The translations under genes and the position numbers were made by a program. Below, one piece after another: positions 1-13,900 of a stretch of 37,848 nucleotides of DNA (the first letter of the stretch is position 1; every line of letters starts with the position of its first letter). The notes beneath the pieces are model-generated. The model was given only the letters and a program-made list of their open reading frames with translations. It made no database searches and was not told the origin of the DNA. Where the stretch lies: positions 1-37,848 of the forward strand of contig NZ_JAMTDV010000011.1 in assembly GCF_023806565.1 (NCBI RefSeq), given 5' to 3'. The stretch is from Accumulibacter sp. Its GTDB lineage: Bacteria > Pseudomonadota > Gammaproteobacteria > Burkholderiales > Rhodocyclaceae.

Positions 1-46
1 ACCTCATCACAACGCCGTGCAACAGTAAATGTTCAACTTATTTTTG

Positions 47-1687
47 CTAGGCTCCCAAGTGTACGAAGGCATAGAGGCCCTCGCCGCGTGGCAGCAGGAG
101 GCCGCTGCGCCGTGCCACCCAGCCAAGGTAATCGCGTGCGGCCGCACCCGCCTCGGCGATTCCGGATTTCTCCATTCTCTCCGCCAGCCAGCCGCAGACT
201 TCGCTTTCCGACACGAGAATCCCCGATTGTTGGTCGCCCTCGGAGCGCCGTACCTGCATCTGGAAGCCGACATAGGCCAGCCAGCCCTTGCGTTCCTTCC
301 ACCCATGGTGCGCGAGGCGGTCCGGTCCGGGGGCCAGTTTGCGGCCGCTGTCGATCGTGTTGATATACGCATTGGCGATTTCGTCGTAGAGCAAGGCCTT
401 TCCGTCCGGCAGATCGGCACGCTCGCGATGCACTACCGCCATCAGCGTCAGCAGGTTGGGCGTACGCGCCAAGTGCAGGGTGATGGCATGACGCGACACC
501 GATGCCACCAGGTCGGCCGCCTTGGCGCGCGCTTCGATTTCGGAGCGGCAACGTTGGCTATACCAGTTGGTCGCGAATGCTGCGATCCGCGCGTCGTCGA
601 AGGGCATCAGGTAGCGGCGGACAGCCCAGGTGGCAGGCTGGTGACGCTCCGCCAGGGCTTTGCCCAGAACCAGCCATTCTTCGTCAAAATCGATGCGCGG
701 CTTGTCCACGCCAGACGTCCCGCCACGCTCGTTGTCCGGCATTCGGTTGCGATGAGTCCACTCATCGACTTGCGGTTTCCACTTCGCAAGCGGGCTACGC
801 AGCGTGGACTCCTCGACACGCGACTCTAGCTCCGCCAGCAGGCTAGTCCGCCTGAGTTCCTCCAGCAGCAGCAGCTCCCGCGCGCTGATCGATAGATTCG
901 CGGGCTTGGCCATTACCGAGTGAAAAGCAGCGGTGCCGAACACCCTCGGCCGCTGCAGCTCCAACCCGAATCCGTACTCGCCAACTCTTTCTGGACTTCG
1001 TCCAAAAGGAAACTCGTTTCTGTCGATTGGCAGGTCGTCATAGCCGACGATGCGTGAGGTGGCAAGAACACAGGCGTCTTGCAGGCTCGCCTCCCTGACC
1101 CAAGCCTGCACGACTTTACGCGCCGCCACCGGAATCTCATCGACACCGTCGAGGATGAGAACGTATTTTCCTGCTTCGACTCTGGCACGCAGATTGGCCT
1201 TCAGTTCTTCGCTCGTCCTTTCGCCGAGCAGGCGTTGCGCAATGGGTGCAACGAGACCAGTGAGCGGGACGTTCTCGGCAAAGACTTCCGGTGACAGCTC
1301 GCGCAAGAGGCAGGGCAGCGGCACGCGATCTTCCAGGAATGCCGGCAGCGGCGTCGAAAGCCCGGCAGACAAGCGCCACGCCAACCAGTTGGCGAGCGTC
1401 GTCTTGCCGCCACCGGGGTCGCCGAGGACGACCAGGCGGCGATGCTCTTCCAGCGCATCGAGCAGGCTCTGTCCTTGCGGCCAATTGCTCAGGTCGCTCT
1501 CGGGATTCACCTGTTGTGCGGCCAGCAACGGGGGCACGTAGATCGTCTCGATGCGGATCCGCGGCAGGTCCCGCATGCTGTCGAGCGCGAGGATCTCGAC
1601 CGTCCCCATCCGTGTCGCCACTTCACTCAGGTAGCGGCGCAGACTCAAGTCATCCCACAGAGGTTTCAGCGTCTGCGCGGTGCTCAT
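47..1687 (-). CDS. NACHT-domain P-loop NTPase, C-terminally truncated
   Basis: STAND-class NTPase of the NACHT family. The reading frame has a Walker A motif GDPGGGKT (residues 89-96), a Walker B motif LILDGVDEIP (177-186) and the following LATSRIVGYD sensor segment (208-217). About 130 residues that look like an insertion separate this from the RRYLMPFDD helix (about 357-365). The frame ends abruptly just after YAFVHL, where family members normally continue with a FQEYxAA-like motif and a C-terminal sensor region. Here a TAG follows within three codons, and no frame restores the motif in the remaining 46 bases. The ATG overlaps the stop of the upstream KAP gene by four bases (ATGA), so the two were probably co-translated. 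Bacterial NACHT proteins are known anti-phage sensors; that role here is inference, and the truncated copy is probably inactive. Confidence 0.8.
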   Translation of the reverse strand: MSTAQTLKPLWDDLSLRRYLSEVATRMGTVEILALDSMRDLPRIRIETIYVPPLLAAQQVNPESDLSNWPQGQSLLDALEEHRRLVVLGDPGGGKTTLANWLAWRLSAGLSTPLPAFLEDRVPLPCLLRELSPEVFAENVPLTGLVAPIAQRLLGERTSEELKANLRARVEAGKYVLILDGVDEIPVAARKVVQAWVREASLQDACVLATSRIVGYDDLPIDRNEFPFGRSPERVGEYGFGLELQRPRVFGTAAFHSVMAKPANLSISARELLLLEELRRTSLLAELESRVEESTLRSPLAKWKPQVDEWTHRNRMPDNERGGTSGVDKPRIDFDEEWLVLGKALAERHQPATWAVRRYLMPFDDARIAAFATNWYSQRCRSEIEARAKAADLVASVSRHAITLHLARTPNLLTLMAVVHRERADLPDGKALLYDEIANAYINTIDSGRKLAPGPDRLAHHGWKERKGWLAYVGFQMQVRRSEGDQQSGILVSESEVCGWLAERMEKSGIAEAGAAARDYLGWVARRSGLLLPRGEGLYAFVHLGA

Positions 1688-2739
1688 GCCGTGCTTCCTG
1701 TCGTCGTGCTTGCGCGCCGCTTGAGCAAAGGAATGAAATCCCTTTCCACCAGAACATCGCGTTTTTCACGCACCAGTGGAGCGATCCAGAAAATCTCGAT
1801 GGCGTTGGGATCCGGGTAGTTCGATTGCCACGGTTCGCCTTCGCCTTGCCCCGGCAATCGTGTTTCAGGCAAGCGTAGCGCACCAATCCACTCCGGCGGG
1901 CGCCGTTGCGGGAACGGCGCTCTTGGTAAGGACTCTTCGGCGAAGGAAACTTCCTGAATATCGCCGCAGCACCACGCCTTGATTTCGTCCCAAAAGCGCG
2001 GCTGGAAACACCAGCGCTCCCACAGGTCCCGGTGGAACTGGTAAACGTATGCAGCGACGAGCACTCGCACCGAATACGCTTCCTGCGCTTCGGTCTCGGC
2101 CGGCCACTTCGCTCGCTCGGCAAAGCGCAACACTTGGTTGGCAAGCGCCTTGAGGCGGCGAGGGTTCGGCGGCAGACAAGCGAGGCTGCCGAGCGCCAAT
2201 TGCAGGGCCAGCTTCTGCTCGGGGGCGACATCGAGCCAATGGGCCAGATGGAGCAATGGATCGGGCGGCGGCGGCAAGCGAAAGATGTTGGTGCAAATCT
2301 TCTCGAGATAGTGCGCCGCGCGCAGGTGCACGACGGCTGGGGAAGTTTCCTTGGCTACTGCCAGTTCCTTGCTGATGGCATCCACCAGCGCTTGCTCGTT
2401 CATTCCGATAACAAAGACGCAGCGCGGAACATTGAGATAAATCTTCAATCCCTCGAGCAGGCGAAACGCTGCCGTCGAGTTGCAGCGATCGAGGTCATCA
2501 ATGAAGACGACCAGTCGCGCACCATCCCCGTCGGGCAACAAACTCTTGATCGTTTCGTTCAGGAAGCCGCGGATCGAATCGGTCGACAGCTTTTCGGCGA
2601 GGTTCGCCTTTTCCCACTTCTCGCCTATGCTCTCGATCCGGTCGGCATTGGGAACCGGCACCTCGGCGCCTATCGTCTTGGCTGCGTCCCCCAGGGCACT
2701 CAGGATGTAGCGGCCGGCTACTTCGCCGAGCTTTTTCAA
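1684..2739 (-). pseudogene. KAP-family P-loop NTPase, C-terminal part after in-frame stop
   Basis: Second part of a KAP NTPase gene. It carries the family's Walker B segment LVVFIDDLDRC (residues 76-86 of this piece), followed by a stretch typical of the family: CVFVIGMNEQALVDAI, then HYLEKICTNIFRLPPPP. The frame is the same as that of the N-terminal part and is separated from it by one TAA at 2743-2745. The displayed start is a TTG two codons after the stop and has no ribosome binding site of its own. The sequence across the junction (KKLGEVAGRYIL) is what would be expected inside an intact family member. I therefore read this as the rest of a gene broken by a nonsense mutation, not as an independent gene. 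It ends with an ATGA overlap into the NACHT gene. Confidence 0.75.
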
Positions 2740-2742
2740 CTG

Positions 2743-3129
2743 TTACTTCACGGCTGGAGCAAACGACAGTTGGCGGCGCATCTCGTGCAGCAGCGCGACA
2801 ACCGGCGCCGCTTCGTTCTGGTAGCGCCATGCTTCGAACCAGACAGTAGCGATTTCCCCGCGCTTCTTCTCGCGCTCCTTCTTTCGCTCCTCCGTCTCGA
2901 CGACGCGATCAGCGTCAGCGACTGAGCCATCGTCCGGCGACGGATCTCCGCCGAGACGCCACTGCAACTGGCGCATGAAACTGGTCTTGCCCGAACCCCA
3001 GTCCCCCTGCACGCCGAAGACATGAGGTGGGTGGCAGCCCATGATGTGCGCGCACAGTTCGTCGAGTTCCTCGCCCCAACTCAGTTGGTCATCAAGCGTT
3101 GGCAGGTCACTATGCGGTTTGGCTGGCAT
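2743..3129 (-). pseudogene. KAP-family P-loop NTPase, N-terminal part with Walker A
   Basis: First 128 residues of a KAP NTPase. The Walker A motif GDWGSGKTS lies near residues 42-50, and the characteristic VWFEAWRYQNE segment follows about 60 residues later. A charged E/K-rich linker lies between them. The frame then meets TAA (2743-2745) and continues in the same frame for another 351 codons, which hold the Walker B motif. The chosen ATG (3129) starts just ahead of the conserved part; an in-frame ATG at 3222 would add 31 residues and has no better ribosome binding site. The KAP family includes the phage-exclusion protein PifA of plasmid F, so a defence role is plausible. Alone, this piece cannot form a complete nucleotide-binding site. 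Confidence 0.72.
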
Positions 3130-3279
3130 CGTTTTCACTCGTCCAATTGATCTGGCGAATGATTGTCGCAGGATATCCGGAATTTGGACAAATCTTCCCC
3201 GGTCTGACGAGTTGGTACCCATAAGGGAAGGGCGCAGTCCATTGCGGCCGTGTCTCCGGCGGCTGGTCCGGCACCTCGT

Positions 3280-4371
3280 TCATGGCAGCGATCTGCGCAG
3301 CCACGGCAGCAGCGCGGCCGCCGCTTCGGCCGCGCCGGACGGGCTGGGAACCGGCGGCGCTGCCTGTTGCCACAGGGCCGCCAGTGCTTCACCCAGACGC
3401 CCCGCGAGCAGGTCGGCCTGGCTGATTTCGCGGCAGCGGGCATGGTCGTGCAGCCAATCGATCAGACAATCCTGTTCCGGCCACTCGTCGCGTCGCACGT
3501 AGAGGATGGGCGTACCATTGCAGGCCGCCTCGGCGAAGGTGCCGTAACCGGGTTTGCCGACTACGGCGTCTACTGATCGCAGCAGATCGATCAGCGGTCG
3601 ACCGAGCGGTTCGAAGGCGCTGGCGGCCGGATGCGCGAGTGCCCAGTCCTGCGGGACGAGCCAGCGTACTCCCGGAATGGGCGGCCAGTCGGCGATCGGC
3701 AGTCGTTGAGCAATGCCGCCGAACGCGATCAGTACCAGTCGATTGTCCTCATCACACTGCAACTGCGCACGCACGGCCTGCCGGCAGTCGTTGCCGACAC
3801 CGGCCACCGGACCGATCGGGCGCAGGCGCGGCAGGTCGGCCATGGCCATGCCGGGAGTCAGCCGCAGGAAGCATTCGGCGCTCTGATAAGCGGCCAGCAT
3901 CTGACGATGAATCGTCGCCGCCCAGCGCTCGCCACCGAAGAAATGCGCAAAGAGCTCGGCCCAGTTGAGCGAGCACATCGCCAGCGAGGGAATGCCCGCC
4001 CGTGCCGCTCCGGCCAGCGGCAAATAAGCGACGTCGCTGAAAACCAGGTCCGGCTTGAGTTCGGCGAGGAGGGCCGCTTCCAGATCGACCCGGTGTTCCC
4101 AGTCGGCATGCTGCCGGCGATAGGCATGGGCGGTCGCAGCCAGATCGACGCGCATCGAATCGAGCATGACGTAGCCGAAATCGCTGCTGCCAGCGAGGCG
4201 CGTAAAGCCAGACCGAACGCGGGCCTGCAACGTATCGGTCGGCAAACCGCTGCGTATTGTGAGGCGCAGTCCGGGCAGCCGGCCGGTGAGGACGTCGAGT
4301 ACCGGTGCCACTTGCGCCAGATGGCCGAAGCCGTGCGCCGACACGTCGACGAAGAGGTGGGGTTCCTGCAT
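3280..4371 (-). CDS. MurG/YjiC-like glycosyltransferase
   Basis: Protein of 363 residues resembling GT-B glycosyltransferases of the MurG / UDP-glycosyltransferase type. Near the N-terminus FVDVSAHGFGHLAQ resembles the glycine/histidine loop of the acceptor domain. In the C-terminal half VLIAFGGIA begins the donor-binding domain, and VDAVVGKPGYGTFAEAACNGTP matches the nucleotide-sugar region of the family. The in-frame frame extends upstream to 4512 but overlaps the trhP coding region, so I chose the ATG at 4371, directly before the conserved start. It lies 14 bases after trhP on the same strand and is probably co-transcribed with it. The sugar and acceptor cannot be told from the sequence. 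Confidence 0.8.
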   Translation of the reverse strand: MQEPHLFVDVSAHGFGHLAQVAPVLDVLTGRLPGLRLTIRSGLPTDTLQARVRSGFTRLAGSSDFGYVMLDSMRVDLAATAHAYRRQHADWEHRVDLEAALLAELKPDLVFSDVAYLPLAGAARAGIPSLAMCSLNWAELFAHFFGGERWAATIHRQMLAAYQSAECFLRLTPGMAMADLPRLRPIGPVAGVGNDCRQAVRAQLQCDEDNRLVLIAFGGIAQRLPIADWPPIPGVRWLVPQDWALAHPAASAFEPLGRPLIDLLRSVDAVVGKPGYGTFAEAACNGTPILYVRRDEWPEQDCLIDWLHDHARCREISQADLLAGRLGEALAALWQQAAPPVPSPSGAAEAAAALLPWLRRSLP

Positions 4372-4385
4372 TGCTGCTCCGCGTC

Positions 4386-5699
4386 TCAGACGAAGCGGGC
4401 CAGCATCGCTCCCGGCAGGTCGGTCGGCAGGGGAATCCAAACCCGATGGCCGTTGCCGGGTGCGACGCCGATCTCGGCCCCGTCGAGGTTTTGTATCCGT
4501 TCGATCGTGCATTGCCGGTTACCCGAAGGATGGATGATTTCGATACGATCACCCACCGAAAAGCGGTTCTTCACCTCGATCAGCGCCCGTTCGCCCGGCG
4601 CGTCCCAGGCCAGCACGTCGCCGACGTAGAGGCTTCGCCCCGATTCCGAGTGGCCGCGCAGGTAATTCTGCAGTTCATGCTCATGGTGACGCTGGTAGAA
4701 ACCGTCGGTGTAGCCGCGATTGGCCAGTCCTTCAAGTTCACCGAGCAGTGCCGGATCGAAGGGGAGCCCGGCAACGGCGTCGTCGATCGCGCGACGATAG
4801 ACCTGGGTCGTGCGCGCGACGTAGTAGGGTGACTTGGTGCGTCCCTCGATCTTCAGCGAATCGACGCCGATTTCGCACAGACGGCGAACGTGTTCGACTG
4901 CCCGCAGATCCTTCGAGTTCATGATGTAGCTGCCGTGCTCGTCTTCGTCGATCGGCATCAGTTCGCCCGGACGCTGCCTCTCTTCGAGCAGCCAGTCGCT
5001 CGCGCCGGAGTGCCGGACTGGCGCCGCGGCGACGTACAGGTCGCCGGTCGCATCGGCTTCCGCCGGCATCAGGCGGTAATCCCAGCGGCACGAGTTGGTG
5101 CACGTTCCCTGATTGGGATCTCGATGATTGAAGTACCCGGACAACAGGCAGCGGCCCGAATAAGCGATGCACAATGCGCCATGGACGAACACTTCAAGCT
5201 CGATATCGGGGCACTCCTGGCGAATCTCGGCGACCTCGTCGAGCGACAGCTCGCGGGAAAGGATGACCCGTCTGATCCCCAGTTTTCGCCAGAAGCGCAC
5301 CGCAGCGAAGTTGACGGTATTCGCCTGCACCGACAGGTGGATCGGCAATTCGGGCCACTTCTCGCGAACCACATCGATCAGTCCGGGATCGGCCATGATC
5401 AGTGCATCCGGTCCGAGGGCAAGGACCGGCGTCATGTCCTTCAGGTAGCTGCGGACCTTGCGGTTGTGCGGCAGGACGTTGCTGACCACGTAGAGTTTCC
5501 TGCCGGCAGCGTGTGCCTCGTCGATGGCGTTGCCGAGTGCGACGAGATCGCCGAAATCGTTGTTGCGCACGCGCAGGCTGTAGCGCGGCTGGCCGGCGTA
5601 GATTGCGTCCGCACCGAAGGCGATGGCAGCTCGCAGCATCGCCAGCGACCCTGCGGGGGCGAGTAATTCGGGAGCGGGCAGGGCGGCGACGGCGGACAT
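4386..5699 (-). CDS. trhP: U32-family tRNA hydroxylation protein TrhP (YegQ)
   Basis: Protein of 437 residues, close to the length of E. coli YegQ/TrhP, which takes part in prephenate-dependent formation of 5-hydroxyuridine at tRNA position 34. The N-terminus PELLAPAGSLAMLRAAIAFGADAIY is the usual start of U32 proteins. The U32 signature is present as EVFVHGALCIAYSGRCLLSG, followed by RDPNQGTCTNSCRW with further conserved cysteines. The C-terminus (about the last 80 residues) fits the small beta-barrel of this subgroup. The longer sibling RlhA is about 650 residues, so length favours TrhP. The ATG at 5699 starts the conserved part. The gene is divergent from rng and lies upstream of the glycosyltransferase. 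Confidence 0.88.
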   Translation of the reverse strand: MSAVAALPAPELLAPAGSLAMLRAAIAFGADAIYAGQPRYSLRVRNNDFGDLVALGNAIDEAHAAGRKLYVVSNVLPHNRKVRSYLKDMTPVLALGPDALIMADPGLIDVVREKWPELPIHLSVQANTVNFAAVRFWRKLGIRRVILSRELSLDEVAEIRQECPDIELEVFVHGALCIAYSGRCLLSGYFNHRDPNQGTCTNSCRWDYRLMPAEADATGDLYVAAAPVRHSGASDWLLEERQRPGELMPIDEDEHGSYIMNSKDLRAVEHVRRLCEIGVDSLKIEGRTKSPYYVARTTQVYRRAIDDAVAGLPFDPALLGELEGLANRGYTDGFYQRHHEHELQNYLRGHSESGRSLYVGDVLAWDAPGERALIEVKNRFSVGDRIEIIHPSGNRQCTIERIQNLDGAEIGVAPGNGHRVWIPLPTDLPGAMLARFV

Positions 5700-5721
5700 C
5701 CGGAGAAGGTGCGGGACGGGG

Positions 5722-5727
5722 TAGAAT
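5722..5727 (+). promoter_or_regulatory. possible -10 element for rng
   Basis: TAGAAT 45 bases before the rng start, in the short divergent region between trhP and rng. No convincing -35 box lies 16-18 bases upstream, so this is only a weak candidate. Confidence 0.3.
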
Positions 5728-5771
5728 GCGGCGACGCGGAATCTTACTCCCATTCTCCCTATCGACTCGCC

Positions 5772-7226
5772 ATGTCCGAAGAGATACTGATCAATTTCAC
5801 GCCGCAGGAAACGCGCGTTGCCGTCATGCACCAGGGCGTCGCGCAGGAACTGCACATCGAGCGTAGCGCAAGTCGCGGCTTCGTCGGCAATATCTACGTT
5901 GGGCGCATCGTTCGCATCCTGCCCGGCATGCAGTCGGCGTTCATCGACATCGGCCTGGGTCGTACCGCTTTCCTGCACGTCGCGGACATTCGCGAGCCGC
6001 GCCCCAGCGACGAACCGCTGCGGCCGATCGAGCGCCTGCTCTTCGAGGGGCAAAGCATCCTGGTGCAGGTGATCAAGGATCCGATGGGCACGAAGGGCGC
6101 GCGCCTATCTACGCAGGTCTCGATTGCCGGGCGCATGCTGGTCTATCTCCCGCAGGACAAGCACATTGGAATCTCGCAGCGCATCGAGCGGGAGTCGGAA
6201 CGCGAAGCGCTGCGCGAAAAGCTGGGCCGCCTGGTGCCCGGAGACGAACCCGGAGGCTTCATCGTCCGTACCATGGCAGAGAGCGCGACCGAAGCCGAGC
6301 TGGCCAAGGACATCGAATACCTGCGCAAGCTCTGGCGAGACATCCAGACCCAGTCGACGACTGCGGCGCCGCCAGCGCTGCTCTACCAGGAACTGTCGCT
6401 GGCGCAACGTGTGCTGCGCGATTTCGTGAACCCCGAGACCGCGCGCATCGTCATCGATTCGCGCGAGAATTTTCAGCGGCTCACGATCTTTGCCGCCGAA
6501 TACACGCCAACGGTCGCACCTCTGCTCGAACATTACGTCGGGGAAAGGCCGCTTTTCGACCTGCATGGCGTCGAAGACGAGATTCAGAAAGCGCTCGCCC
6601 GCCGCGTCGATCTGAAATCGGGGGGTTATCTGATCATCGACCAGACCGAGGCGATGACCACCATCGACGTCAACACCGGCGGTTTCGTCGGCGTGCGCAA
6701 CTTCGACGACACGATCTTCAAGACCAACCTCGAAGCGGCGCAGACGATCGCGCGCCAGCTTCGCCTGCGCAACCTCGGCGGCATCATCATCATCGATTTC
6801 ATCGACATGGAGAACGAGGAACACCGGGCAGCCGTGCTCAGCGAGTTCAACAAGGCCCTGGCGCGCGATCACACGCGCCTCACGGTAAATGGCTTCACCG
6901 CCCTCGGCCTGGTCGAAATGACCCGCAAGCGGACGCGCGAATCGCTTGCCCACGTCTTGTGCGAGGAATGCCCGACCTGTGGCGGGCGTGGCGAGGTCAG
7001 GACGGCGCGCACCGTTTGTTACGAGATTCTCCGCGAACTCCTGCGCGAAGCCCGCCAGTTCAACGCGCGCGAATACCGCGTGCTCGGCAGTCAGGCGGTG
7101 ATCGACCGCTTCCTCGACGAGGAGTCGCAGGGGCTGGCCATGCTCTCCGACTTCATCGGCAAGCCGATTTCGCTGCAGGCCGAACCCAGCTATTCACAGG
7201 AGCAGTACGACATCGTCCTCATGTGA
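5772..7226 (+). CDS. rng: ribonuclease G
   Basis: Endoribonuclease of the RNase E/G family, 484 residues, the usual length of RNase G and lacking the long C-terminal scaffold of RNase E. An S1-type RNA-binding domain occupies about residues 36-120 (GFVGNIYVGRIV, then AFIDIG and AFLHVADI). The DNase I-like catalytic part has the two metal-binding aspartates in TTIDVNTGGFVG (around residue 298) and IIIDFIDM (around 340). The zinc-link cysteines are in CPTCGGRG. Known roles of RNase G are 16S rRNA 5'-end maturation and mRNA decay. The ATG at 5772 fits the family N-terminus MSEEILIN; upstream codons in the frame fall in the promoter region. Confidence 0.95.
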   Translation: MSEEILINFTPQETRVAVMHQGVAQELHIERSASRGFVGNIYVGRIVRILPGMQSAFIDIGLGRTAFLHVADIREPRPSDEPLRPIERLLFEGQSILVQVIKDPMGTKGARLSTQVSIAGRMLVYLPQDKHIGISQRIERESEREALREKLGRLVPGDEPGGFIVRTMAESATEAELAKDIEYLRKLWRDIQTQSTTAAPPALLYQELSLAQRVLRDFVNPETARIVIDSRENFQRLTIFAAEYTPTVAPLLEHYVGERPLFDLHGVEDEIQKALARRVDLKSGGYLIIDQTEAMTTIDVNTGGFVGVRNFDDTIFKTNLEAAQTIARQLRLRNLGGIIIIDFIDMENEEHRAAVLSEFNKALARDHTRLTVNGFTALGLVEMTRKRTRESLAHVLCEECPTCGGRGEVRTARTVCYEILRELLREARQFNAREYRVLGSQAVIDRFLDEESQGLAMLSDFIGKPISLQAEPSYSQEQYDIVLM

Positions 7227-7329
7227 ATTCGCGTGACGCCCGTCAGGATCGCTTCGCTGGCAAACACGCGATGGGCAAGGGGACGTCCAAATGCTCCTTT
7301 CGATTGCCTCCGGGCGGGCCGCTGGCAGC

Positions 7330-7359
7330 TTGACCAGGGCCTTGCTAGCGCCCTATAAT
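7330..7359 (+). promoter_or_regulatory. sigma-70 promoter of the tRNA gene
   Basis: TTGACC at 7330-7335 and a perfect TATAAT at 7354-7359, 18 bases apart. The tRNA begins 12 bases after the -10 box, so the 5' leader is very short. Confidence 0.75.
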
Positions 7360-7371
7360 CGATCGTCCTAA

Positions 7372-7448
7372 GGTGATGTAGCTCAGTCGGTTAGAGCGAT
7401 GGATTCATAACCCATAGGTCGGTGGTTCAATTCCACCCATCACCACCA
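7372..7448 (+). tRNA. tRNA with CAT anticodon, probably elongator tRNA-Met
   Basis: A 77-base cloverleaf with encoded CCA. The acceptor arms GGTGATG and CATCACC pair perfectly, the D stem is GCTC/GAGC and the T arm is GGTGG-TTCAATT-CCACC. The anticodon loop TTCATAA gives CAT. The anticodon stem ATGGA/CCCAT has an A-C mismatch next to the loop. A CAT anticodon may also belong to tRNA-Ile2, whose C34 is changed to lysidine. It is not an initiator, because the first acceptor pair is matched and there is no run of three G-C pairs in the anticodon stem. Confidence 0.93.
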
Positions 7449-7473
7449 ATAAATCAAACGATTAGCGCACGCT

Positions 7474-7491
7474 CCAAAGAATTTGGTTTTT
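7474..7491 (+). terminator. weak intrinsic terminator after the tRNA
   Basis: CCAAA-GAA-TTTGG followed by five T residues, 25 bases after the tRNA. The stem has only five pairs, so it is a modest candidate. The remaining bases up to 7663 show nothing I recognise. Confidence 0.4.
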
Positions 7492-7663
7492 CAAGGATTG
7501 CGCCCGCGTTACATTTGCCGTAGTCAAGCCGGATTCTTGGCCATCATTTCTCGTGCGCCTGCAAGGCATATCGTGAAACGGTAAAGCATCAACCTGCGGT
7601 TTCTGTGTCAGTCACAAGAGCCCCGGCGCTTGGCCGCGCCTTGATGCCTCGACAAAGATCGTC

Positions 7664-8053
7664 ATGAACGTTCGTCGGGCAATGCCAAGGTTCAAAAGTG
7701 GCTTTTTCGCCGTCATCGCTGTGTGTCTGCCAGTCATGGCCGCCGCAGTGCCAATGTACACTGCGGTCGACCTTGGCACGTTACCGGGCAGCCTAAACAC
7801 CATCGGCCTAGCCATAAACAGCAGCCGGCAGATCACGGGCTACGCAGGCATGGCTACTGGTGTCATCCACGCATTTCTTTAATCCGCGGGCGCATTGACA
7901 GACTTGGGTACCTTGGGTGGGACCGAAAGCCGCGCCCAAGGCTTCAACGCCACCGGCCAAGTCGCGGGCAATGCCGACATGGCTGGCGGTGCCTCTGCTC
8001 CCCGCGCCTTCCTGTACTCCGGCGGAACTATGTACCATTGTTTTCGTCATTGA
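7664..8053 (+). pseudogene. relic of a secreted HAF-repeat protein
   Basis: A 130-codon frame with one internal stop. It begins with a signal peptide (basic N-region, hydrophobic core FFAVIAVCLPVMAAA) and continues into repeats of the extracellular HAF type: VDLGTLPGS, then AINSSRQITGYA, then HAFL. At 7880-7882 TAA stands where these repeats normally have tyrosine (HAFLYS). In the same frame the sequence resumes as SAGALTDLGTLGGTESRAQG, NATGQVAGNADMAGG and RAFLYSGGTM. It then loses similarity and stops at 8051. So one substitution killed the gene and the 3' part was lost. HAF-repeat proteins are exported surface proteins of unknown function and often have many more repeats. Confidence 0.75.
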
Positions 8054-8359
8054 CCGAGGTGAACAAGGTCGCCCTGCTTGGCACGAGGTGGCGGAAGAAC
8101 AGCTGATTGCTCGGGAAGAATCTGCGAGTGGCGCGCCCTACTGATGTACCGCACACGGCGGACTTGGACGGCCGAGCGTTTGCCTGGTGCAGGGCCGAAG
8201 TCTGGAAGGCGTGGTGGCAAGGTTTTGCCCCTTGGTTGAGGATTTGGGTGCAGTATACGCTTTCGGACTCCACCACCGCCTGAAGCGGTGATGGGCTTGT
8301 CCCGACCATTTGGGAGCAGGCACGGGCCTTTCGGGCGGTCGTTTGCTGAGGGGATGGTG
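8054..8359 (+). other. 306-base non-coding strip, possibly part of a dispersed repeat
   Basis: No gene is recognisable between the HAF relic and the synthase-PilZ gene. It contains a strong imperfect inverted repeat at 8270-8294 and some G/C-rich runs. Open frames on the minus strand here (for example 8047-8424) have composition like a shadow or repeat and no family features. Confidence 0.4.
8270..8294. repeat. imperfect inverted repeat (hairpin)
   Basis: Arms at 8270-8279 and 8285-8294 pair at nine of ten positions around the loop CTGAA. No T-run follows on either side, so it is not a standard terminator. It resembles REP-like or mobile-element-associated palindromes, but this cannot be shown from one copy. 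Confidence 0.5.
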
Positions 8360-9670
8360 ATGATCAGAAAACTAGTCCTGCCGGTGCGAAGGCTGCTGGG
8401 CGGGACGCTGAGAAAGCTGTTCAACGTTCTCCCGCGAGAGAGGCGCTTCGCCGTCTACCGCAATTTCGTTGATTGCGATCCCGCCCCGAACGCGAGCCTT
8501 GAGCTGAAAATCGCCGAAACGCAGGAGGAACTCGAGGCGTGTTTCACTCTGCTGCATGATGCATACGTCGCCAGCAAGTTCATGAAACCCGATCCTTCCG
8601 GGATGCGCGTCACCATTTACCATGCGCTGCCGACGACCACGACGTTATGCGCGAAGTATGATGGCGAAGTGGTCGGTACGCTGTCGTTGATCAGGGAGAG
8701 CGTGCTGGGCTTTCCGCTGCAGAGAATCTTCGACTTGTCGGCGCTGCGCGAAAAGAAGGGAAACATCGCGGAGGTATCGGCGCTGGCGATCCACCGCCGC
8801 TTTCGTCGCACCGGCGGGAGCATTCTGTTCCCCCTGATGAAGTTCATGTACGAGTATTGCACAACCTTCTTCGATACTCGGCATTTGGTGATTGCGGTCA
8901 ATCCCAGTCACATCGAGATGTACGAGTCGCTGCTCTTTTTCAAGCGTTTGACGCAAAATGTGGTCGAAAACTATGATTTCGTGAATGGTGCGCCAGCGGT
9001 CGGTGCCACGCTGGACTTGAGTACTGCCCCGGAGATTTTCCGGAAGCACTACGCGTCGAAGCCGCCCAAGAAAAACCTCTATGCGTTTTTCACCGAGGTC
9101 AAGCTACCCAACATCAAACTCCCGCAGCGCCGTTTCTATACCACCAACGATCCGGTGCTGACTCCCGGGTTGCTCGACCACTTCTTCAATGTGCGTACGA
9201 GTGTCTTCATGCAATTGAGCGATCGAAAGAAGAGGTTGTTGCACACCATTTACGATCTGCCAGCGTACCGCGCGATACTGCCGCCGGCTCCCGAGGAAAG
9301 CCAGGCAAATGCAGCAGACAGGAGCCACCGGCGGTTTTCGGTACGCTGTCCGGCGCGGTTCTCGGTTCTGGGGTCCGACGGTAGCGAAAGCCGAGTCCGG
9401 CTCGACATCGTCGAACTCTCTCGTTACGGTTTTCGGGCGCACACGAGAACCCCCGTCCCTATCAATGTCTGGGGCGAGGTCATCGTTCAGCTGGGGCCGC
9501 GGGAAATGTCGCAGACACACGTCTTTGCATGGCGGCAAGCGGAGCCCGGCGCCTACGACTTCGAACTCGGCGAGCCCGATCTGATCTGGCGCAAGTTCGT
9601 CAATGCGCTCTACCGGGGCAGCACCCAAGCCGATCTGGAAGATGCGACTCGCTTCATGGTGGAAAGATGA
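8360..9670 (+). CDS. FeeM-like N-acyl amino acid synthase with C-terminal PilZ domain
   Basis: Protein of 436 residues with two parts. The N-terminal part (about 40-240) is a GNAT-fold domain of the FeeM N-acyl amino acid synthase type: the LKIAETQEELEACFTLLHDAYV opening, the VGTLSLIRES strand, EVSALAIHRRFRRTGGSILFPL at the acyl-donor site, and VIAVNPSHIEMYESL. The C-terminal part (about 320-420) is a PilZ domain, normally a c-di-GMP sensor, with HRRFSVRCPARF giving the RxxxR motif. The second motif, D/NxSxxG, reads ELSRYG, with E instead of D or N. The likely role is acylation of an amino acid from acyl-ACP, perhaps tuned by c-di-GMP. The ATG at 8360 is preferred over 8354 because GAGGGG lies six bases before it. 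Convergent with the AraC gene. Confidence 0.75.
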   Translation: MIRKLVLPVRRLLGGTLRKLFNVLPRERRFAVYRNFVDCDPAPNASLELKIAETQEELEACFTLLHDAYVASKFMKPDPSGMRVTIYHALPTTTTLCAKYDGEVVGTLSLIRESVLGFPLQRIFDLSALREKKGNIAEVSALAIHRRFRRTGGSILFPLMKFMYEYCTTFFDTRHLVIAVNPSHIEMYESLLFFKRLTQNVVENYDFVNGAPAVGATLDLSTAPEIFRKHYASKPPKKNLYAFFTEVKLPNIKLPQRRFYTTNDPVLTPGLLDHFFNVRTSVFMQLSDRKKRLLHTIYDLPAYRAILPPAPEESQANAADRSHRRFSVRCPARFSVLGSDGSESRVRLDIVELSRYGFRAHTRTPVPINVWGEVIVQLGPREMSQTHVFAWRQAEPGAYDFELGEPDLIWRKFVNALYRGSTQADLEDATRFMVER

Positions 9671-10949: not shown

Positions 10950-13900
10950 ATGACCGACCTATCCATTGCCAAGAAGCTCTTGCCCTACAAGCCCAAGCAC
11001 AAGGTACGTTTCGTCACCGCTGCATCGCTGTTCGACGGGCACGATGCGTCGATCAACATCATGCGGCGCATCTTGCAGTCGACTGGCGCCGAGGTCATCC
11101 ACCTTGGCCACAATCGCTCCGTGCAGGAGATCGTCAACGCGGCGCTGCAGGAGGATGTCCAGGGAATTGCCATCACCTCGTATCAAGGTGGGCATGTCGA
11201 ATTCTTCAAGTACATGATCGACCTGCTGAAAGCCGGCGGTGGCGAGAACATCAAGGTCTTTGGCGGTGGTGGCGGCGTCATCGTGCCGAGCGAAATCGAG
11301 GAATTGCATCGCTACGGGGTCACCCGCGTCTATTCGCCAGAAGATGGGCAGTCGATGGGTTTGCAGGGGATGATCAACGAGGTCGTGGCGACCGCCGACG
11401 TCGACCTGTCGGTGCTGGCGCCGCAGGACCCGGACGCAATCCTCGCGGCGCTGAAGGCCGGTGACCGCCGCAAGCTCGCACAGATCATTACGGCGCTGGA
11501 AAACGGTGTGTACCCGGAAGCGCTGCGCAAAAAGCTGACGCATGCCGCCGCTGGCCTGAAAGTGCCGACGCTCGGGATCACCGGTACCGGCGGCGCGGGC
11601 AAGTCGTCGCTCACCGACGAACTGGTGCGCCGCTTCCGGCTCGACCAGGGGGACAGCCTCCGACTGGCGATCATTTCGATCGATCCCTCGCGTAAGCGTA
11701 CGGGAGGCGCGCTGTTGGGCGACCGGATTCGCATGAACGCGATCGAGCATCCCAACATCTACATGCGCTCGCTTGCGACGCGGGAAACCGGTTCCGAAGT
11801 CTCCGCCGCGCTGCCGGAGGTGATCGCCGCGTGCAAGCTTACCGGATTCGATCTGGTGATCGTCGAGACATCCGGAATCGGCCAGGGCAATGCCGCCATC
11901 GTGCCGCTGGTCGATGTTTCGGTCTACGTGATGACCCCCGAATTTGGCGCAGCGTCGCAGCTCGAGAAGATCGACATGCTTGATTTCGCCGATTTCGTGG
12001 CCATCAACAAGTTTGACCGAAAGGGTGCCGAGGATGCCGCACGCGATGTGCGCAAGCAGTATCAGCGCAATCACGAGGCGTTCAGCCAGAGCCCGGACGA
12101 GATGCCGGTGTTCGGCACGATGGCGGCCCGTTTCAACGATGACGGCGTGACTGCGCTCTATCAGGCCATGGCACCGAAACTGCATGCCCTTGGCCTGAAG
12201 CTGAAGAAGGGCAAGCTGCCGCCTGTCGGCGTTCGCCAGTCGTCGAACCAGCGCGCGATCGTACCGCCGCAGCGTGTGCGTTACCTCGCTGAAATCGCCG
12301 AAGCGGTGCGCAATTACCACACGCACACCGCCGAGCAGGCCGAGATGGCTCGTCAGCGTCAGTCGCTGCGAACGGCCAGGGATCTTTTCGTCGCCTGCGG
12401 CAAGCCGGCTGGCGATTTCGACGAATTGATTGCATGGAAGGATCGGCAACTCGATCCGCGGGCATGGAAACTCCTCGACATGTGGCCGAAAACCGTTGAA
12501 CTGTACGCGCAGGACGAGTACGTTGTGAAAATACGCGACAAGGAGATTCGCACTCGGCTCACTCATACCTCGCTGTCGGGGTCCAGGATTCGCAAGGTGT
12601 CACTGCCGACCTACCGTGACGATGGCGAAGTGCTGCGCTTCCTGATGAAGGAGAACGTTCCGGGTTCGTTCCCCTTTACCGCCGGAGTTTTTGCTTTCAA
12701 ACGCGAGAACGAGGACCCGACCCGTATGTTTGCCGGCGAAGGCGATGCCTTTCGCACCAACCGGCGCTTCAAGAAGGTTTCCGAAGGAATGCCGGCAAAA
12801 AGGCTGTCGACGGCCTTCGATTCGGTCACCCTGTACGGCTGCGACCCTGACGCCAGGCCAGACATTTACGGGAAGGTGGGCAACTCCGGGGTGTCGATCG
12901 CGACGCTGGACGACATGAAGGCATTGTTCGACGGCTTCGACCTCTGCGCACCGACGACTTCCGTGTCTCTGACCATCAACGGACCGGCGCCAATCATCCT
13001 GTCGATGTTCTTCAATACGGCGATCGACCAGCAGGTAGAGAAATTCCGCACCGACAACGGTCGCGAGCCGACCGAAGACGAAACACAGAAGATTCGCGCG
13101 TGGGTGCTGGCCAACCTGCGAGGCACGGTCCAGGCGGACATCCTCAAGGAGGATCAGGGTCAGAATACCTGCATCTTCTCGACCGAATTCGCGCTCAAAA
13201 TGATGGGTGACATCCAGGAGTTCTTTGTCCATAATGACATTGGCAACTTCTACTCGGTGTCGATTTCCGGCTACCACATCGCCGAGGCAGGTGCCAATCC
13301 GATCTCGCAACTGGCGTTTACTCTGGCCAACGGTTTCACCTACGTCGAAACCTATCTGGCGCGCGGCATGCATATCGACGACTTCGCGCCCAATCTGTCG
13401 TTCTTCTTCAGCAACGGCATGGACCCCGAGTATTCGGTGATCGGCCGCGTAGCTCGCCGCATCTGGGCGATTGCGATGAAGAACAAGTACGGAGGCAACG
13501 AGCGCAGTCAGAAGCTGAAGTACCACATCCAGACTTCGGGCCGTTCGCTGCATGCGCAGGAAATGGCATTCAACGATATTCGCACCACGCTTCAGGCACT
13601 GATCGCCATCTACGACAACTGCAACTCGCTGCACACCAACGCCTACGACGAAGCGATCACCACGCCCACCGAGGAGTCCGTTCGTCGGGCGATGGCCATC
13701 CAGCTGATCATCAATCGCGAGTGGGGGCTGGCGATGAACGAGAATCCGAACCAGGGATCGTTCATCATCGAGGAACTCACCGACCTGGTCGAAGAAGCCG
13801 TGCTCAAGGAGTTCGAAGCCATTGCGGCGCGCGGCGGGGTTCTCGGAGCGATGGAAACCGGCTATCAGCGAGGCAAGATCCAGGAGGAGTCGCTGTATTA

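Follow-up and report, generated by a model that had tools for sequence, protein, structure and literature searches.

Receptors of the nucleotide-binding, leucine-rich repeat (NLR) type connect bacterial and animal immunity, and bacterial NACHT (bNACHT) proteins are usually described as a single chain comprising sensor, NACHT domain and effector. Passages of one study (PMC12169576) call bacterial NACHT proteins that bear leucine-rich repeats (LRRs) bona fide bacterial NLRs, state that readily discernible effectors are absent from clade 14 bNACHT proteins, and report that some bNACHT proteins defend without readily discernible effector domains. For KAP P-loop NTPases, excerpts of the corresponding papers describe (i) PifA-type membrane proteins whose P-loop domain is interrupted by transmembrane segments (PMC2577010), (ii) one predicted defence neighbourhood in which KAP stands beside Orc/Cdc6 proteins possibly fused to NACHT (PMC10853773), and (iii) one architecture in which KAP replaces STAND NTPases (PMC8195603; PMC10907252). 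Accessory loci of temperate phages are, according to part of a further source, a known reservoir of anti-phage genes, including NLR-like ones (PMC9122126). Here we describe a KAP gene coupled to a NACHT-LRR gene at the edge of a 37,848-nucleotide stretch of Accumulibacter sp. DNA (contig NZ_JAMTDV010000011.1; the whole stretch is hereafter called the window). The window probably contains a conserved two-gene anti-phage module, that is, an NLR split over two proteins, in a copy that was acquired horizontally and has since been inactivated.

Structure and disruption of the paired genes

The features of the locus are as follows.

1684..3129, minus strand: KAP-family P-loop NTPase gene (ATG at 3129, TGA at 1686-1684), disrupted by one in-frame stop
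2983..3006, minus strand: KAP Walker A, GDWGSGKT, kept in 15 of 15 aligned relatives
2743..2745, minus strand: TAA inside the KAP gene, in frame, at a poorly conserved position with open halves on either side
2482..2505, minus strand: KAP Walker B, FIDDLDRC
1684..1687, minus strand: ATGA, in which the KAP stop and the NACHT start overlap
47..1687, minus strand: N-terminal part of the NACHT-LRR gene (ATG at 1687); C112 (locus L007), another contig of this genome, has the remainder
1400..1423, minus strand: NACHT Walker A, GDPGGGKT
56..58, no strand: 3-base flank, reading TTG on the minus strand, that recurs beyond the element on C112
1..55, no strand: insertion sequence (IS) end at the contig edge; 30-55 is a 26-base terminal repeat common to C112 and C61

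A preliminary description of this DNA had proposed two P-loop NTPase genes, KAP and NACHT, translationally coupled and both damaged, and each of these points is borne out by Pfam scores above cut-off, by the overlap at 1684-1687, and by the two lesions. The KAP halves flanking the TAA share one frame, contain the Walker A and the Walker B motif, respectively, and score 30.3 and 44.4 bits against KAP_NTPase (PF07693; gathering cut-off 20), while relatives L023 and L031 reach 83.6 and 95.9 bits; a family KAP profile spans both sides of the stop, with the one TAA inside the match. A sequencing or assembly error is a possible source of this TAA. Programmed read-through was also considered and dropped, loss being the simpler account given the IS in the second gene (no supporting element was sought). 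No membrane-like segment was found among 15 aligned KAP proteins, the highest 19-residue hydropathy being 1.75. The same genome carries a second KAP gene (L140, C128:63263-64077), which lies close to the end of its contig, is split over two frames and apparently belongs to another subfamily.

The NACHT domain of the window scores 34.7 bits against PF05729 (gathering cut-off 26.7), comparable to L023 (30.7), L031 (35.5), L038 (36.4), L055 (36.8), and L056 (37.8), with L030 slightly below the cut-off at 25.6. Base 1 of the window is base 1 of contig C11 (46,447 bases, in a 139-contig assembly), and truncation of the NACHT gene is due to an IS insertion at this contig end. Window positions 30-55 have exact matches on C112 and C61 of the same genome; the inner IS end on C11 differs from that on C112 and C61, and that of C112 leads into a transposase-like start. 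Two of the ten listed plasmid matches to this start are annotated as ISAzo13-family transposases, the 91-residue start itself has no Pfam match at 1e-4, and the element is probably an IS of the ISAzo13 family. The TTG on both of its sides is likely a target duplication. Outside the element, C112 continues with LSFQEYFCACYLAE... (LSFQEYF...), a helical region, leucine-rich repeats, and then metH. Given that 13 of 14 paired relatives from the genome scan described below (the contig of L029 ends first) have the C11-like and C112-like parts joined in a single frame, and that the end repeat recurs on C112, the NACHT-LRR gene was split by IS insertion. The NACHT assignment of the preliminary description thus holds for the N-terminal part, the full gene being a NACHT-LRR gene interrupted by an IS. 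Its LRR region consists of 5.4 copies of a 66-base unit in tandem (89% match), which suggests recent expansion.

Conservation and genomic setting of the pair

Pairing outside this genome had been set beforehand as the test of a two-gene system, and it was found, at near-zero spacing, in genome contigs, profile matches and viral contigs. A degenerate scan of genome contigs (84,980 species) was performed with two KAP N-terminal parts, one from the window and one from a plasmid of Candidatus Magnetococcus massalia, the second sequence that made such a scan possible; an earlier scan of genome contigs with the window NACHT part had returned no relative. Nineteen loci were obtained, in 14 of which (L023, L025-L032, L034, L035, L037-L039) the next same-strand gene encodes NACHT, and in two of which (L024, L033) the contig ends inside the KAP gene. 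The titles of these 14 records mention Gallionella, Immundisolibacterales, an uncultured gammaproteobacterium, Shewanella, Hydrogenedentota, Thiobacillaceae, Actinomycetota, Methylomonas koyamae, Desulfobulbus, Venteria, Crenothrix, Methylococcales, Alteromonas, and Thiotrichales, and may be wrong in places because most of these records are metagenome bins. When 398 genomes of the phylum were searched with the KAP profile at E 1e-20, eight of ten matches were paired (own genome, L052, L054-L059); L053 is cut by a contig end, and L060, the weakest match, is another KAP without NACHT.

As a control, 38 generic KAP loci (L121-L159 minus L140; already-positive genomes and some weaker KAP matches excluded) were scanned, and none has the family NACHT alongside. 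Thirty-six of these were informative, the others being L126, where the profile did not recover the KAP gene, and L121, with 114 bases behind KAP. The control scan used the NACHT profile of this family, which unrelated NACHT genes could escape, and it recovers NACHT in all 19 known pairs to which it was applied. Where the two ends could be located, the distance between the KAP stop and the NACHT start is -13 to +22; a spacing of -4 is possible in nine of the 14 genome-scan pairs, two of them with an alternative start. Distances between KAP proteins correlate with those between NACHT cores (r 0.94 over 18 pairs, identities down to about 20%), a figure that includes shared species history.

In total, 27 pairs were identified: 22 on cellular genome contigs, one on the Magnetococcus plasmid, and four on viral contigs. 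The plasmid (L018, 2341-7859) has both genes, at 28-50% identity over parts, with KAP interrupted by an IS4-family gene and a short NACHT followed by an IS1380-family gene. Neighbours were inspected for seven plasmid matches, and only L018 is a KAP-NACHT pair: L020 and L022 were set aside as Qat by annotation and L019 as Qat-like by gene order, L016 and L017, both NACHT, are without an annotated KAP beside them, and L021 (KAP) has no annotated NACHT neighbour. Among IMG/VR contigs, the full KAP profile gave four loci and the NACHT profile seven, obtained through full-length alignments; a viral scan with short alignments had yielded no relative. NACHT is the next gene in all four viral contigs with KAP. 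In L165, L166, and L168 the pair lies directly behind an integrase gene and is followed at some distance by a phage repressor gene, to which L165 adds a primase gene. Next to L164 and L167 are a phage tail gene and a gene for an Rz-like spanin; the NACHT of L167 is at a contig end, so that its KAP side is not visible. L169 and L170 are weak NACHT matches (23%) of the same position and length (4092-8984), L169 having no KAP neighbour among the open reading frames (ORFs) listed; the N-terminus of this large protein resembles, by eye, a restriction-endonuclease effector. In L038 (Alteromonas), an integrase gene (3920-4909; PHROG integrase, 1e-50) about 2 kb upstream suggests that this pair, too, is in an integrated element.

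Several single loci have features of their own. L036 (6998-10593) is a KAP remnant of this subfamily, with no NACHT found, facing a Type ISP restriction-modification gene, L040 (6980-9034) is a KAP NTPase fused to an FGE-sulfatase domain, and L041 (1523-3083) is a KAP with sigma-70 region 4. In Methylomonas koyamae (L031), the pair is followed by a TatD-like gene (10996-12478), which may be housekeeping in view of the ThiF/TcdA-like gene that comes after it. Confirmed restriction-modification-type methylases are limited to the surroundings of L025 and L035, Pfam having been run on seven chosen ORFs only. Breakage affects the window, L018, L039, and L059 among the 27 pairs, plus the lone remnant L036, and such repeated breakage is compatible with a system whose upkeep is costly.

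With respect to its immediate surroundings, the pair is flanked by metH downstream of NACHT (on C112) and by the following gene upstream.

3280..4386, minus strand: glycosyltransferase-like gene, upstream neighbour of the insertion site, followed by metH in three of ten genus relatives fetched

This gene is present in 26 of 28 same-genus genomes. In L086-L088, metH starts at most about 1.3 kb past it, a distance that could not accommodate the pair, and no match to the KAP query lies in the intervening stretch; since the two neighbours are adjacent without the pair in these relatives, the pair was added between them. In the other seven of the ten genus genomes, metH was not found in the downstream stretch. 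A close copy of the window KAP C-terminal part was found only in its own genome (199 family genomes), and the window NACHT part matched only itself (274 class genomes). Weak KAP matches to the C-terminal part (29-36% identity over 73-145 residues) occur in seven other of the 199 family genomes and show no such NACHT, though with merely 0.4-1.4 kb behind KAP they are little informative. A position at the end of a housekeeping transcript, as had been claimed, was not shown: the glycosyltransferase-like gene lies about 150 bases from KAP on the same strand, and a search of 2900-3500 revealed neither a sigma-70-like promoter nor a terminator pattern.

Proposed mechanism and alternative explanations

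Intact NACHT relatives (L023, L031, L038, L030) have LRR_4 above the Pfam cut-off, so that NACHT and C-terminal LRR stand in one frame as in bacterial NLRs, and the modelled NACHT-LRR structure resembles NLRC4/NOD2. KAP is predicted to adopt an RdrA-like AAA+ fold, that of an RdrA-type ATPase; NTPase motifs are kept in KAP, and nucleotide-binding motifs are intact in relatives. No Pfam effector precedes NACHT in the window, L023, L031, L030, L038, L055, or L056, and 84-119 residues precede the NACHT Walker A (13 aligned); the tripartite bNACHT architecture with its N-terminal effector was not found. Sequence-level links to known defence families are weak.

The C-terminal end of the NACHT protein is the variable part of the module. 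In pairwise comparisons of prophage copies L165, L166, and L168, identity is 84-91% for KAP, 75-85% for the NACHT core, and 43-55% for the last 420 residues with the LRR, whose nonsynonymous divergence (dN) exceeds the core value by a factor of 2.7 to 4.1. Judged from these sequences, the faster change of the LRR is as would be expected of a sensor. L055 and L056 have NACHT without a Pfam LRR, and in the C-termini of L052, L055, and L056 arrays of a 6-base unit, C[GT]GG[AC]T, replace the LRRs. These arrays, confirmed as tandem repeats in L055 (8630-8978), code for alternating R/L and A/D, are followed by a more conserved C-terminal stretch, and look like a hypervariable sensor generated through minisatellite change. 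Taken together, LRR variation and 6-base arrays indicate exchange or variation of the C-terminal end on a KAP-NACHT chassis that is retained.

We infer an anti-phage function for the module, as well as the identity and target of its effector. Based on knowledge of NLRs and on the rate pattern, the LRR of the NACHT-LRR protein (gene 2) would sense a product of infection, upon which the NACHT domain would oligomerise. The soluble KAP NTPase (gene 1), coupled to gene 2 and probably acting as an ATP-driven ring, would then convert the signal into growth arrest or exclusion of the invader. The response is assigned to KAP because no other effector was seen, and this is the least certain step of the proposed order. 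The chances are roughly even that the pair represents an undescribed immune type: an effector-less NACHT-LRR that acts only via an obligate, co-translated, RdrA-like KAP, forming a two-component NLR whose logic is comparable to that of sensor/helper NLR pairs, carried by prophages and plasmids into several phyla (going by record titles), and fitted with interchangeable, fast-evolving sensor ends.

Certain results weigh against the module as proposed. Three of the 19 scan loci (L036, L040, L041) have KAP without this NACHT. Neighbours of the non-viral copies, read by eye, are mostly housekeeping genes, and the neighbourhood check suggested in the preliminary description yielded mostly housekeeping or prophage genes, not defence islands. 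A search of 50,697 annotated phage records gave no match. The QatA equivalog scores only 74.4 (L023), 94.3 (L031), and 90.8 (L034) bits, far below its cut-off of 600. With dS near saturation, dN/dS is unreliable and positive selection in the LRR is not shown; identities and dN were used instead. The prophage copies, flanked by integrase and repressor genes or adjoining tail and spanin genes, the one plasmid copy, and the integrase upstream of L038 would all suit a role in superinfection exclusion or maintenance for the prophage or plasmid carrier, as opposed to general host defence. We consider such a role unlikely, as 22 of the 27 pairs are on cellular contigs, mostly with no prophage genes noticed nearby (by eye), so that the benefit is probably not bound to one element.

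It is also conceivable, if rather improbable, that KAP is a guard or inhibitor and that NACHT-LRR alone senses and executes, being freed upon loss of KAP in a toxin-antitoxin-like manner. The gene order, with KAP in front and tightly coupled, would suit an antitoxin, and the defence reported in passages of PMC12169576 for some bNACHT proteins that have no discernible effector is compatible with it. However, KAP is damaged in L039 and L059 while the NACHT frame is open as far as the contig extends, where a freed toxin should be lethal, and of the two proteins KAP is the better conserved among the three related prophage copies, with NTPase motifs retained. That the two genes are unrelated and merely travel together is very hard to sustain; accessory genes can share one locus, but spacing held within -13 to +22 down to about 20% identity, the correlated distances, and the 0 of 38 controls strongly disfavour it. 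If the preferred reading, a split NLR with KAP as the responding partner, is true, a KAP-partnered, effector-less NACHT-LRR offers a simple system for the hand-over of a signal from receptor to machine, and it is directly testable since intact copies exist in Methylomonas koyamae and in prophages.

Comparison with known defence systems

Among curated NCBIfam families, the best match of the KAP protein is QatA of QatABCD, also a KAP NTPase. The partners differ, being QatB, QatC, and QatD in that system and NACHT-LRR in the pair. Neighbour ORFs were read by eye for QatB-D, with no formal search, and L031 has a TatD-like neighbour; QatD is TatD-like as well. Compared with RdrA of RADAR, the KAP protein has 11-15% identity, and RdrA past about residue 493 is without counterpart; the RdrA equivalog gives 11.2 bits for L031 (cut-off 600), with L023 and L034 unlisted at E up to 0.1, and no RdrB-like partner was noticed among the neighbours by eye (no formal search). 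With the F-plasmid exclusion protein PifA, named in the preliminary description as a member of the KAP family, the pair shares the KAP domain, with at most 68 bits to the PADLOC PifA model. It differs in consisting of two genes, and its KAP, without a membrane-like segment, is nearer to QatA by score and to RdrA by fold than to PifA. KAP/Orc-Cdc6/STAND neighbourhoods have NACHT fused to Orc/Cdc6, whereas the pair has a separate NACHT-LRR protein; by eye, no Orc/Cdc6-type neighbour was noticed apart from a gene in L025.

PADLOC 2023 has no model naming the pair: KAP matches only the KAP models of other systems, and the best match of the NACHT protein has E = 0.0006. KAP proteins of similar size occur in PDC-S20 (up to 104 bits), which we take from its S code to be a single-gene candidate, and the NACHT protein has no match to a PDC-S20 model. 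A KAP-NACHT two-gene system is likewise absent from NCBIfam 2026 and from the literature searched, most subscription papers being outside reach, and within these sources the designation of the pair as undescribed stands. With bNACHT proteins, the NACHT protein of the pair shares a C-terminal repeat sensor on a NACHT NTPase; only the pair has a KAP gene directly upstream, and an N-terminal effector was not found in it. Bacterial NLRs and KAP defence proteins are each of an already known kind, and the pair is a new combination of the two.

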